Origin: Pseudomonadota bacterium
GTDB taxonomy: Bacteria; Verrucomicrobiota; Verrucomicrobiia; Limisphaerales; SXTU01
Length of the DNA: 64,000 bases
Direction: 5' to 3'
Assembly (NCBI GenBank): GCA_009922615.1
Contig: RFVF01000001.1
Coordinates: forward strand, 62,001 to 126,000
Shown here: piece after piece, positions 17,502 through 41,652 of the stretch
How the letters are laid out: each line of letters opens with the position of its first letter
How positions within the stretch are numbered: position 1 is the stretch's first letter
Made by a program: the position numbers and the translations under genes
The notes under the pieces: model-generated
Told to the model about the DNA's origin: nothing
The model's input: only the letters and a program-made list of their open reading frames with translations
The model's database searches: none

Positions 17502-17552
17502 CGCATTCCCTTTCGCGCAGAAAATTTTGTGAGCTTCTGCTTGACGCATTAA

Positions 17553-17567
17553 CTCTGCAATGCAAAG
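17553..17567. promoter_or_regulatory. Operator-like near-palindrome upstream of the membrane protein / regulator pair
   Basis: The sequence ctctgcaatgcaaag is a 15-bp near-palindrome (arms CTYTGCA / TGCARAG). It lies 9 bp before the GTG at 17576. A TTGACG hexamer stands 11 bp upstream at 17541. A close second copy lies at 18599, just after the regulator gene. Both have the same offset from a TTGNNN hexamer and the same 'aactctgYaatgcaaa' core. I infer binding by the winged-helix regulator encoded in this operon. No good -10 box is visible at standard spacing. Confidence 0.45.
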
Positions 17568-17575
17568 CTTCCATC

Positions 17576-18220
17576 GTGCAACCGAACTGGGCTGAAGAAA
17601 ACCTTCAAGTCATCCGCACGCTGATGGAGCGCGCGGGGCTGTATCGGCGCGCTCTTGCGCCGGTGATGCTGGCTCTCGGTGTTCTCGGCGTGATTGGATG
17701 GGAAGTTGGAAAATGGTTCCGGATGGAATCGTTTGAATCCTTCACGACGCTGTGGTTCACGATTGCTGCCTTCGCGATCGCAATCGCCCTTCTAATCATC
17801 CGTAGGCAAGCGCTGAACTCTGTTGAGCCGTTTTGGACGGGGCCAACCAAGCGCGTCGCCTTTGCAATGTTGCCTCCGCTCACAGCGGGACTGATGCTTG
17901 TATTGGTTCAATTTGCTGCGCGTTCAAGCACGGGTTCCAGTGGCGGTTTGGAAATCGGATGGCCCTTGCTTTACGGATGTGCGCTTCATTCTGCGGGTCA
18001 GTTCATCTCGCGCGGAGTGCGACTGCTTGGCTGGGGGTTCATTTCCGCGTCCGTTGCACTTGCATACATTCAAATGCACATAGCCAGTGGGCTTGATGAG
18101 AAGGGCAAACTTCCCATTTGGGTTCAGCCGAACGCAATGATGGGCATGACCTTTGGGGGGCTTCACCTAGTCGCCGCTGCCTACCTCTACTTCACCGAAA
18201 AGCCGAATCCGACGCCGTGA
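17576..18220 (+). CDS. Integral membrane protein of unknown function, paired with a winged-helix regulator
   Basis: The track opens at 17441, inside nuoN; the GTG at 17576 ('VQPNWAEENLQVIRTLMERA') fits better, just downstream of the operator-like site. The product is about 214 residues with six or so hydrophobic segments after a short cytoplasmic N-terminal helix. No transporter or enzyme motif is visible. Its stop overlaps the start of the regulator gene by 4 bp (GTGA). In related genomes membrane proteins of this sort often precede small winged-helix regulators, from which a sensing or stress role might be guessed, but nothing in the sequence states a function. Confidence 0.75.
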   Translation: MQPNWAEENLQVIRTLMERAGLYRRALAPVMLALGVLGVIGWEVGKWFRMESFESFTTLWFTIAAFAIAIALLIIRRQALNSVEPFWTGPTKRVAFAMLPPLTAGLMLVLVQFAARSSTGSSGGLEIGWPLLYGCALHSAGQFISRGVRLLGWGFISASVALAYIQMHIASGLDEKGKLPIWVQPNAMMGMTFGGLHLVAAAYLYFTEKPNPTP

Positions 18221-18558
18221 ACGCCGAACCTTTTCTCCAGCTCGACCGCGTCATCCACGAGAAGGGACGTCTCGGCATCATGTCCGCCCTCGCCGCCGCG
18301 CCTGAGATGCCGTTCACCGAGTTGCGCGATCTGCTTCAGATGACCGACGGCAATCTCACCTCGCACATGAGGACGCTCCAAGAGGCTGGCTACGTCGCCG
18401 TCTCGAAGTCCTTCCATAACAACCGGCCGTTGACCACCATCTCGCTCACCAAGTCTGGCGAGAAAGCCTTCCGCAATTACGTCGCCCTCCTCGCCGAGAT
18501 CGTTGAGATCACTCGCGAGTTCGGCACTGTGCCCGCCAAAGTCCCCGCCACGAAATGA
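18217..18558 (+). CDS. Winged-helix transcriptional regulator (PF13601/MarR-ArsR-like)
   Basis: This 113-residue single-domain DNA-binding protein starts with GTG at 18217, coupled to the preceding membrane protein gene. It has the order helix ('LDRVIHEKGRLGIMSALAAA'), helix-turn-helix ('FTELRDLLQMTDGNLTSHMRTL') and wing ('YVAVSKSFHNNRPLTTISLT'), then a C-terminal helix, matching the small HTH_34-type winged-helix family. No metal or ligand site is visible. It most likely controls its own operon through the near-palindrome at 17553 and perhaps the copy at 18599. The track start at 18118 overlaps the upstream gene too far. Confidence 0.85.
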   Translation: MNAEPFLQLDRVIHEKGRLGIMSALAAAPEMPFTELRDLLQMTDGNLTSHMRTLQEAGYVAVSKSFHNNRPLTTISLTKSGEKAFRNYVALLAEIVEITREFGTVPAKVPATK

Positions 18559-18598
18559 ACTCCGCGTTTGAACGAAGTCTGGCGACTTTGGTCATGAA

Positions 18599-18630
18599 CT
18601 CTGTAATGCAAACCACAAGTCATTGCAGAG
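18599..18630. promoter_or_regulatory. Second copy of the operator-like palindrome, upstream of ispH
   Basis: ctctgtaatgcaaa (18599-18612) repeats the 17553 site with one change. It is followed at 18621-18630 by cattgcagag, the inverse of its first half, so the site is an extended inverted repeat. A TTGGTC hexamer stands about 11 bp upstream, as TTGACG does at the first copy. The site lies 40 bp after the regulator stop and 140 bp before ispH. It could control transcription toward ispH or be the remnant of a duplicated promoter. Confidence 0.4.
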
Positions 18631-18769: not shown

Positions 18770-19648
18770 ATGAAACTCCTCCGCGCCTCCCATCTCGGCA
18801 TGTGTTTCGGTGTCCGCGACGCCATCGCCTACGCCACCGCTGAAGCCGCCTGTCAGCCGCTGACCATCCTCGGCGAGTTGGTCCACAACGAAACCGTCCT
18901 CGCCAGCCTGCGCGCTCGCGGCATCCGCTTCGCCCGCCAGCCGGACACGGGCGAGACCGACACCGTGATGGTCACCGCTCATGGCGCTTCTGAGGCCGCA
19001 AAGTCGCGCGCCCGCGAGCGCGGACTGCGCGTGCTGGAGGCCACCTGCCCACTCGTCCATGTCGCCCACCGCGCCGTGCTGATGCTTGTGCGCGAAGGCT
19101 TCCACCCCGTCATCATCGGCAAGTGCGACCACGTGGAGGTGCGCGGCCTCACTGAAGACCTCGCCGAGTGCGACATCGTGCTCACCGAGGCTGACGTGGC
19201 CGCGCTGCGCGAGCGCCCGCGCTTCGGCATCGCCGCGCAGACCACCCAGCCCATCGAGCGCGTGCGGCAACTCGTCGCGTTCATTCGCGCACGCTTTCCG
19301 CAGGCGGAAGTCCGCTTCGTGGACACCGTCTGCCAGCCCACCAAGCAGCGCCAGACCGCCGCCGAGGAACTCGCGCGCCAGTGCGATGTGGTCGTCGTCA
19401 TCGGTGGCGCGCACAGCAACAACACCCGCGAACTCGTCGCCACCTGCGCGCGCCACTGCCCGCGCGTGCATCATGTGCAAGGCCCCGACGACTTGCGCCC
19501 TGAGTGTTTCAGCCACGCGGAAACTGTCGGCCTCACCGCCGGCACCAGCACGCCGGACGCGACGATTGATGCGGTGGAGCAAGCACTGTGGCGCATCGCC
19601 AGCCAGCTCGAAAACCCCGTTGCTTCGACTGAGCCCTTGGCCGCTTAA
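18770..19648 (+). CDS. ispH: 4-hydroxy-3-methylbut-2-enyl diphosphate reductase
   Basis: IspH (LytB) makes IPP and DMAPP in the last step of the MEP isoprenoid pathway. From ATG 18770 the product has 292 residues with the three cluster cysteines: Cys12 ('LGMCFGVRDAI'), Cys93 ('EATCPLV') and Cys188 ('VDTVCQPTKQRQ'). Other family blocks are 'HGASEAAKSRARERG', 'VIGGAHSNNTREL' and 'LTAGTSTPDATIDAVE'. Details such as 'CFGV' and 'CQPTKQRQ' depart from the common 'CAGV' and 'CYATTNRQ', marking it as a divergent branch of the family. The track start at 18623 is too early. About 210 bp separates it from the regulator gene. Confidence 0.92.
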   Translation: MKLLRASHLGMCFGVRDAIAYATAEAACQPLTILGELVHNETVLASLRARGIRFARQPDTGETDTVMVTAHGASEAAKSRARERGLRVLEATCPLVHVAHRAVLMLVREGFHPVIIGKCDHVEVRGLTEDLAECDIVLTEADVAALRERPRFGIAAQTTQPIERVRQLVAFIRARFPQAEVRFVDTVCQPTKQRQTAAEELARQCDVVVVIGGAHSNNTRELVATCARHCPRVHHVQGPDDLRPECFSHAETVGLTAGTSTPDATIDAVEQALWRIASQLENPVASTEPLAA

Positions 19649-19661
19649 ACCACAACTCCCA

Positions 19662-19865
19662 ATGAAAACCCTCGCCCGGACTGGTGCTGTCCTCTCCTTC
19701 GGCTTCTTTTCCGTTCCCGGACTGGCGCTGATGGCACACGCCCATGGTGACACCGAGATGGGTGCCCTCAGCATCGGCTCTCTCTTCATCGGCATCGGGG
19801 TCTTCGCGGGCACGCTGCTCTGGCTGATGGTGGAGAGAATCGGCTCCAAGCCGGATGCGAAGTGA
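19662..19865 (+). CDS. Small membrane protein
   Basis: The track hides this inside a longer shadow frame (19086-19865). From ATG 19662 there is a 67-residue product with an N-terminal hydrophobic segment ('TGAVLSFGFFSVPGLALMAHAHG') that may be a signal peptide, and a second helix ('SIGSLFIGIGVFAGTLLWLMVERIG'). It begins 13 bp after ispH and ends 28 bp before the ferritin-like gene. No family recognised. Confidence 0.65.
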   Translation: MKTLARTGAVLSFGFFSVPGLALMAHAHGDTEMGALSIGSLFIGIGVFAGTLLWLMVERIGSKPDAK

Positions 19866-19893: not shown

Positions 19894-20646
19894 ATGAACT
19901 ACGCCAAATGGATCTCCCACTTCCAACGCAACCGCGAAAACCGCCCGGAGCCGGATTGGGCTGCGCCGTTCGCCCTGCCGGAATCTGTCCTCCGGCCGCT
20001 GCACCCCTCGCTCGCCGAGTATCAGCTTGGCGATGGCGGTGGGCCGGCGTGCCTGATTGCGGGGGATGCGGAGCAGTTTCGCGGCAGCAGCGAGGCGATG
20101 CGGCAAATCGTGGACCTATGGTTCGCCGAGGAGCGCGAGCACTCGCGGCTGCTGGGCCGCGCCGTGGACCGCATCGGCGCGCGACGCGTCCATGAACACT
20201 GGAGCTTCACCGCCTTTCTGGCCTGTCGGCGCGCGATGGGTGTGCGCGCGGAACTGCAAGTCCTGCTGCTCGTCGAAATTGTCAGCACGGTTTATTACCG
20301 GCTGATTCGCCGTCACTGCACGGACCAGCCGCTGCGCGACATGTGCTCGCTCATCCTGCGCGACGAGGCGGGCCATGTGGCGTTCCACCGCGACCGGCTG
20401 GCGGCGGCGGGCGTGTCGAACTGGGGACTGGGCGGCACGCTGTGGGAACTGCAATTCCGCCGCTTTGGCCTCGCGGCGGCGGCGATGCTCTGGCTCAACC
20501 ACGGGCGCTGCTTGCGGGCGCTGGGCACAAGGCCGCTGGAATTCTGCCGGGAAATCCACCGTGAACTCTCTCGCTTCGTCTGGCGGCTGGGACGGACGGC
20601 GCAAGCCCCGGCTTGCGTGCGCTTGCCAATGCCGCAGCCTGCGTGA
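19894..20646 (+). CDS. Ferritin-like di-iron protein
   Basis: From ATG 19894 the product has 250 residues, mostly helical. Two ExxH-type motifs are visible, 'EEREHSRLL' (Glu80/His83) and 'RDEAGHVAFH' (Glu158/His161), with a further glutamate in 'LLLVEIVST' (Glu128). This pattern is that of a four-helix di-iron carboxylate site, so an oxidase, hydroxylase or iron-handling role is likely; the substrate cannot be read. The last residues ('AQAPACVRLPMPQPA') are encoded by a perfect short hairpin (20600-20617), probably a repeat that extended the gene end. The protein may be membrane-associated through its hydrophobic last helix. Confidence 0.75.
   Translation: MNYAKWISHFQRNRENRPEPDWAAPFALPESVLRPLHPSLAEYQLGDGGGPACLIAGDAEQFRGSSEAMRQIVDLWFAEEREHSRLLGRAVDRIGARRVHEHWSFTAFLACRRAMGVRAELQVLLLVEIVSTVYYRLIRRHCTDQPLRDMCSLILRDEAGHVAFHRDRLAAAGVSNWGLGGTLWELQFRRFGLAAAAMLWLNHGRCLRALGTRPLEFCREIHRELSRFVWRLGRTAQAPACVRLPMPQPA
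20600..20617. repeat. Short palindromic repeat in the 3' end of the ferritin-like gene
   Basis: cgcaagccccggcttgcg is a perfect 8-bp inverted repeat with a 2-base centre. It is inside the reading frame and encodes part of the C-terminal tail. It resembles the REP-like hairpins found elsewhere in this window (21171, 50776, 57074) in size and in its position at gene ends. Confidence 0.6.
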
Positions 20647-40428: not shown

Positions 40429-41652
40429 TCATTCTGCCCTCAACGCTTCCACCGGGTTCAGCTTCGCCGCGCGCCAGGCAGGGAGGAAGCCGGCGATGAC
40501 GCCTGTCGCGATCGAGACGAGGAGCGCGATGCCCACGAGCGTGGCGGAGAGCGCGACCGGCATGAACCGGTCCATCACGAGCGTGATGGGATAGGCGAGC
40601 GCTAGGCCGAGCAATCCGCCCAGTAGGCAGATCAGCGCCGATTCGAGGAGGAACTGCGTGAGGATGGCACGGCGTTTCGCCCCGATGGCCTTGCGGATGC
40701 CGATCTCGCGCGTGCGCTCCGCCACGGTCACGAACATGATGTTCATGATGCCAATGCCCCCGACGAAGAGTGACAGGCTGGTGATGAACAGTCCCGCGCC
40801 AGCTACGACGGAGTTCATGCGCTCAAAGGTCTGGATAAACGCAGCCTGCTCGTTGATCGCAAAGTCATCGGGCATGCCGGGAGCCAGGTGGCGAATCTTC
40901 CGCATGATGCCCCGAATCTCTTCGCGTGCCTCGTCCATTTCCTTCAGGTCGCGCACCTTGACGCGAATGATGACGGGCGGGCGAAAGGAAAAGTCGGAGA
41001 CGAACTTGGTCACCGGGAGCATGACCTCATTGTCCAGGCTCGCCATGCCGAGAAAACTGCCGCGCTTTTCGAGCACGCCGATGATTTCCAGGTTCTGGTC
41101 CTCGACCCGGAGGCGTTTGCCCAGCGGGGATTCGAGGGGAAAGAAGTTGGCCGCAATGTCCGCCCCGACGACGCACACCGGACGCGCGCCTTCCACCTCC
41201 GCCGCCGAGAGGAAACGGCCCTCTTTGAGCATGAGCCCGCCAACTTCCGCCCCGCCCTCGGTGGTGCCGCTGACATTGACCCCGGTGGCGGCGAGGTCGC
41301 GGTAGCGCACGGTCATGCGCCGGCTGGCATCGATGGTCGTGGCGCGGGCGAAGGTCGTTTGACGAACGAGCGCACGGGCGTCGGCGAGCAGGATGGGGCG
41401 GCGATTGCGCATCTTCCACCACGGCTCGTCGCTGAACCACTGCCACGGTGCGATGAAAAACACATCCGTGCCGATGGCGGAGATGCTCTTGATGAACGCG
41501 GCGTTAAGACCGGCGAGCGCCGTGCCCATCAGGGTGACGGTCACGATGCCGATGACAATGCCAAGGGTGGTAAGCGCGGAGCGGAGCTTGTTCGCGCGGA
41601 GCGAATCCCAGGCGATGAACAAGCCCTCGCGGAGTTCGGAGAGGAAGTTCAT
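40429..41652 (-). CDS. MacB-type ABC transporter permease, proximal copy
   Basis: This 407-residue permease has the same layout as its downstream paralogue: N-terminal helix ('[23 protein letters not shown]'), MacB_PCD periplasmic domain, and C-terminal FtsX helices ('[33 protein letters not shown]'). Its ATG overlaps the ATPase stop by 4 bp. Two different permease genes suggest a heterodimer, in contrast to the MacB homodimer in which ATPase and permease are fused. Its substrate is unknown. Confidence 0.92.

Follow-up and report, generated by a model that had tools for sequence, protein, structure and literature searches.

A conserved duplicated operator flanks a membrane protein and winged-helix regulator gene pair beside ispH

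Introduction

Is the near-palindrome that stands on both sides of a membrane protein/regulator gene pair, and whose second copy faces ispH, an operator through which the regulator controls isoprenoid synthesis as well as its own operon? The question arises from a stretch of 64,000 nucleotides (the window, by which the whole of the analysed DNA is meant), and an initial annotation of it had proposed such a dual control, with the membrane protein as the possible sensor. Little is known of transcriptional control dedicated to the synthesis of isoprenoid precursors in bacteria. In the open-access subset of the literature that we searched, no published description of this module was found and, for this phylum, no described regulator of ispH or of HMG-CoA synthase. 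In the present work, the operators, their conservation, their linkage and their co-occurrence with ispH2 (a short second copy of ispH) and with HMG-CoA synthase were read from the sequences of the window and of related genomes.

Results and Discussion

The gene pair and its flanking palindromes

The first gene of the pair (17576–18220, forward strand) is an open reading frame with a GTG start for a membrane protein of 214 aa with six predicted helices, which belongs to a conserved family (A1) and is a candidate sensor. Pfam and NCBIfam gave no match for the protein. Its AlphaFold2 model (pLDDT 86) also contains six helices, and nothing similar to the predicted fold was found in the PDB. The regulator gene (18217–18558, forward strand) likewise starts with GTG, and its start overlaps the stop of the membrane protein gene in the tetranucleotide GTGA (18217–18220). 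Its product is the sole HTH_34 match in the genome (PF13601, 89 bits; cut-off 27) and has no conserved cysteine. The regulator model (pLDDT 86) fits 1ub9 and winged helices of the MarR/ArsR type, 1ub9 being the nearest structure (TM 0.76/0.85). This entry is PH1061, a solved structure that has the HTH_34 domain (PF13601) and the fold in common with the window regulator and whose title gives no function; PF13601 or HTH_34 is not mentioned in the open-access literature searched.

The first palindrome, operator O1, reads CTCTGCAATGCAAAG (CTYTG-N5-CARAG; 17553–17567, forward strand), overlaps the presumed promoter and ends 8 nt before the GTG start of the membrane protein at 17576. The second, operator O2, reads CTCTGTAATGCAAAC (18599–18613, forward strand); in the window it lies about 40 nt behind the regulator stop, and it faces ispH, which starts at 18770, the distance to the ispH ATG being 156 nt in the window's genus. 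Each palindrome is preceded by a −35-like hexamer on the forward strand, as the initial annotation had noticed: TTGACG of the membrane protein/regulator operon (17541–17546) is 12 nt 5′ of O1, and TTGGTC (18588–18593), whose GGTC is kept in near relatives, is 11 nt 5′ of O2. The positions of both palindromes held when the sequence was checked; however, the copies differ at two of their 15 positions (C6>T and G15>C) rather than by the single change reported at first. The added inverted half behind the second copy was also found. This third half-site, TCATTGCAGAG, is an inverted CTCTGCAATGA (18620–18630, reverse strand) and represents a genus-level extension of O2, which is kept in all six close relatives (L022–L027), five of which have CAGAG and the sixth CAAAG.

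Conservation of the two operators

Within the window by itself the repetition is only modestly unusual, with six matches at three or fewer mismatches against 1.9 expected, a number that 4 of 100 shuffles reach. Exact matches to ACTCTGYAATGCAAA occur twice in the whole genome, at the places of O1 and O2 only. Meanwhile, the looser core CTYTG-N5-CARAG is found genome-wide at background frequency (10 sites, versus 9 for the reversed pattern); none of the other core sites inspected in this genome has the look of an operator within a promoter, and no wider regulon was found there. The initial annotation was to be abandoned if the motif was absent elsewhere and the regulator did not bind it: inside this genome the motif is indeed absent elsewhere, but across species it is present.

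We collected 80 relative loci from other genomes, mostly metagenome assemblies, through similarity of the regulator alone. Of the 80 loci, 77 have the complete core (10/10) 5′ of the membrane protein, and the three exceptions (L027, L036, L045) begin too near the regulator. Within the 130 nt 3′ of the regulator stop, a site matching at least nine of the ten core positions is present in 74 of 78 loci, where shuffled sequences give 1.1 on average and at most 6 in 200 trials; for complete sites the numbers are 66 of 78 loci and 0.045 expected. Chance similarity of the operators is ruled out by these shuffles. The consensus across the relatives is ACTTTG-N5-CAAAGT with much less conserved flanks, and in the window's genus the right half of O2 is CAAAC. 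Because both copies recur at the same places in 80 loci of other genomes, we conclude that the repetition of the operator is genuine and highly conserved. The conserved palindromes adjoining the regulator gene are its putative binding sites, and the same putative control site and gene pair are kept in more than 100 related bacteria. Four of the relative loci (L024, L035, L073, L077) come from records titled Klebsiella pneumoniae or Akkermansia muciniphila, which are evidently other Verrucomicrobia bins.

Promoter geometry

The sequence TTG[A/C]C is near-invariant 12–13 nt 5′ of O1 in 77 relatives, and from the first T of TTGAC/TTGCC to the start codon there are 34–36 nt in 61 of 68 measured cases. 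A spacer of 16–17 nt would place the −10 element at CAAAGT, which is the right half-site plus a T; this T is conserved in 95% of the sequences at O1 and in just 56% at O2. The candidate CAAAGT is far from the sigma-70 consensus, and a scan for consensus sigma-70 promoters gave no site. At O2, the position frequencies among the relatives show a conserved GGTC at −9 to −6 before the operator and point to no clear −10 element of the O2 promoter. The GGTC/TTGGTC element is also present at an unlinked ispH (L278). No RNA element was found with Rfam.

This geometry suggests that the O1 transcript probably begins at or beside the start codon, and the near-fixed 34–36 nt from TTGAC to the start points to a leaderless mRNA controlled from a repressor site. 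A repressor would use an operator in such a position, over the spacer and the −10 region. The regulator might instead activate ispH2 and its own operon, considering that some MerR type activators bind between −35 and −10, and that promoters with no sigma-70 consensus −10 may need help. However, operators over the −10 and start region are typical of MarR/ArsR-fold repressors, and the operator here overlaps the presumed −10 and start region; moreover, TTGAC is a good −35 element, and the 16–17 nt between it and the presumed −10 are a usual spacing. We therefore regard activation as unlikely, and repression is retained as the preferred reading.

The two ispH copies

The ispH gene downstream of O2 (18770–19648, forward strand; PF02401 253 bits; TIGR00216 239 bits, cut-off 188) is the short one of two in this genome, the long one being located outside the window at contig position 41307–42335. 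The long type is present in all 11 genomes of the genus. The pair and the short ispH are found in the same seven genomes; two others (G001, G006) have neither, and G009 and G010 contain only fragments of ispH. In an alignment with long IspH copies and, as a guide only, an E. coli IspH sequence, the short protein retains the three cluster cysteines and is therefore probably active. An accessory enzyme of this sort has a precedent in LytB1 of Mycobacterium tuberculosis, a second functional IspH in the isotuberculosinol operon that is presumed to raise isoprenoid flux (PMC3470408). In both cases an extra IspH exists beside another; however, LytB1 belongs to a terpene biosynthesis operon, whereas the short ispH stands behind a regulator pair with an operator. 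Among the 80 relative loci, ispH follows the pair in 73, and the seven in which it was not found are mostly at contig ends.

HMG-CoA synthase in mevalonate users

A profile of the membrane protein was used to search 388 genomes of the phylum. The pair with its operators and ispH exists also in other orders of the class (L219–L231), and the pair occurs in more distant classes too. In eight genomes of the distant classes, HMG-CoA synthase directly follows the regulator; three of these enzymes were tested and score 410–436 bits with TIGR01835 (cut-off 360). The operator is located between the regulator and HMG-CoA synthase in six of the eight, and in the other two the sole site is before the membrane protein. 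No ispH was found in the genomes with HMG-CoA synthase behind the pair, which is expected because they are mevalonate users. In addition, we picked 30 HMG-CoA synthase loci by score and not by presence of the pair: the operator is present in three of the five with the pair and in none of the 25 without it. Hence what looks like one control module stands at the final reaction of one route to isoprenoid precursors and at an early reaction of the alternative route. Some pairs (L222, L226, L239, L240, L242, L245) have other or unknown genes downstream.

Operator-like sites at other genes

A search of 196 genomes of the order for the promoter-operator pattern of the O1 type gave 126 sites, spread over 101 of these genomes, versus 15 sites for the reversed control; the pattern with a wrong N5–6 spacing, which serves as a negative control, gave eight sites over the whole order. 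Among 91 sampled sites, 63 are at the beginning of the membrane protein gene. Recurrent among the other targets are two B12/radical SAM families, an ankyrin protein and small membrane proteins, one of which resembles the product of the window's gene at 19662–19865. Several of these other targets probably belong to the same regulon, while in some genomes paralogous regulators may be behind the motif and some sites are due to chance.

These targets bear on what the module may respond to. Since IspH is an oxygen-sensitive iron-sulfur enzyme and a B12/radical SAM gene follows some of the unlinked operator sites, in two cases one of the BchE type, the module could be a response to iron-sulfur status or oxygen instead of isoprenoid supply. 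On the other hand, HMG-CoA synthase has no iron-sulfur cluster, the regulator offers no conserved cysteine, and other unlinked targets are small membrane proteins, so that we give this explanation little credence compared with tuning of isoprenoid supply.

Individual targets outside the pair include an orphan bchE behind an O1-type operator in two Verrucomicrobia genomes (L159 and L182, in G175 and G144), the L159 protein scoring 531 bits with TIGR02026 (cut-off 481). A photosynthesis cluster was looked for beside the BchE-type targets and none adjoins them. A small membrane protein (MNTIWFKR...; L166, L180) and an ankyrin-repeat protein (L123, L208) each stand behind an O1-type operator twice, in different genomes.

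What O2 goes with

For a count of O2 against ispH we used the 132 non-redundant pair loci in which 1 kb or more of downstream sequence was present. A complete O2 (10/10) is present in 102 of the 110 pairs with ispH, and in most of the other eight a 9/10 site takes its place; among same-class pairs without ispH, O2 is missing in eight of ten. Four genomes (G123, G376, G449, G504) contain an unlinked short or divergent ispH with two operators upstream, one of the two in G123 having the GGTC element, and the pairs of these genomes have O1 only. A site is also located upstream of an unlinked ispH from a more distant class (G256, L264). At the long ispH loci, in the window's genome and in the others examined, the operator is absent. 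O2 thus stays with ispH and not with the pair, so it appears to serve more than the regulator operon: as judged from these loci, it is ispH that O2 tracks rather than the regulator.

O2 might nevertheless be an auxiliary operator of the regulator operon, acting for example through a DNA loop to O1 at a distance of about 1 kb, with ispH as an incidental neighbour. The interval between the regulator stop and O2 hardly varies (about 40 nt), while the one between O2 and ispH can be as short as 3 nt or as long as 829 nt, and O2 is present in a few pairs without ispH (L222, L226). However, pairs whose genomes have ispH elsewhere have no O2 (L047, L179/L215, L228, L232, L233), the unlinked ispH copies bear operators instead, and HMG-CoA synthase takes the place of ispH in genomes that have none; we consider a purely auxiliary role improbable. 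That the motif is a promoter element of an alternative sigma factor is more improbable still: a TTGAC at a fixed place before O1 with the start codon 34–36 nt on, and similar sites before many unlinked genes, would fit it, but the motif is palindromic with both half-sites invariant, tracks the regulator pair, is rare in the genome, lies at a variable distance from the start behind O2, and is absent at HMG-CoA synthase genes without the pair.

The view of the initial annotation, in which the regulator may control isoprenoid synthesis together with its own operon, gains strong support from these comparisons, because the operator goes with ispH even where this gene is unlinked from the regulator, and because the pair and operator precede HMG-CoA synthase where ispH is absent.

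Some operator-bearing genes depart from the usual form. The IspH-like proteins of L280 and L281 (G504 and G449), paralogues from another family that are encoded behind two operators, have lost all three cluster cysteines, which rules out an ordinary reductase as the target at these loci. In G045, a stop close to the end of a contig breaks the reading frame of an operator-bearing ispH-like gene (L146/L282) that is unlinked from the pair L212.

A model for the module

We propose, with good though not full confidence, that the pair forms an autoregulatory module in which the regulator represses its own operon and ispH2 through palindromes in their promoters, and the membrane protein senses a signal and relieves the repression. 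A regulator dimer would bind the CTYTG-N5-CARAG palindromes inside the promoters: occupation of O1 would repress its own, probably leaderless, operon, and occupation of O2 would repress ispH2, which encodes a second version of the enzyme that completes the MEP pathway. The membrane protein would sense a membrane or isoprenoid-related signal and relieve repression, perhaps by retaining the regulator at the membrane. In this scheme we infer the binding, the repression rather than activation, the leaderless mRNA, the membrane sensing and the signal. The presence of the same module at HMG-CoA synthase in mevalonate lineages suggests that its job would be tuning of isoprenoid precursor supply.

A broader and more tentative reading, which we consider possible but rather doubtful, is that the pair is a phylum-wide switch for isoprenoid homeostasis, with IspH2 as its target where the MEP pathway is used and HMG-CoA synthase where the mevalonate pathway is. 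The membrane protein would then sense an isoprenoid lipid or the state of the membrane, the HTH_34 repressor would set the precursor supply, and the module would have followed the need and not the pathway. The logic would resemble that of the eukaryotic SREBP/SCAP system, in which the transcription of HMG-CoA synthase and other isoprenoid enzymes depends on membrane-linked sensing. However, the proteins and the mechanism are unrelated, and the logic would be alike only if the membrane protein of the pair is a sensor. If the proposed module is right, it would provide a function and an operator for a regulator and a membrane protein family so far without either, and an example of a single control module that serves one or the other of two unrelated pathways leading to one product.

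The nearest working analogy for the pair is SdpR/SdpI of Bacillus subtilis, an autorepressor and a polytopic membrane receptor that relieves repression by sequestering the repressor at the membrane (PMC1626106). Both are two-gene operons of a small autorepressor, as presumed for the window regulator, and a polytopic membrane protein, which makes a sensor role of the membrane protein plausible, although sequestration is here only proposed. Differences also exist. The window regulator reaches 12.9 bits with the SdpR model NF033789, below its cut-off of 100, and the window membrane protein is in no SdpI-type family known to Pfam or NCBIfam. In addition, the gene order is reversed, and isoprenoid enzymes are concerned here versus toxin immunity there.

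Genes downstream of ispH

A membrane protein beginning MNEKKCWLVVAVFAMAMAWVESSVV..., which has no family match, is encoded directly 3′ of ispH in L042 (4291–5034) and also in L066, L072, L085 and L086. In the window, an AurF/ferritin-like protein is encoded at 19894–20646, two genes past ispH (PF11583, 18.6 bits, below the cut-off), and its relatives come after ispH in L026 and L055. Between the two, ispH is followed by a gene for a small membrane protein of 67 aa (19662–19865, forward strand); proteins similar to it, as judged by eye, are encoded behind an operator of their own elsewhere, in G059 and G175 (L161, L157).
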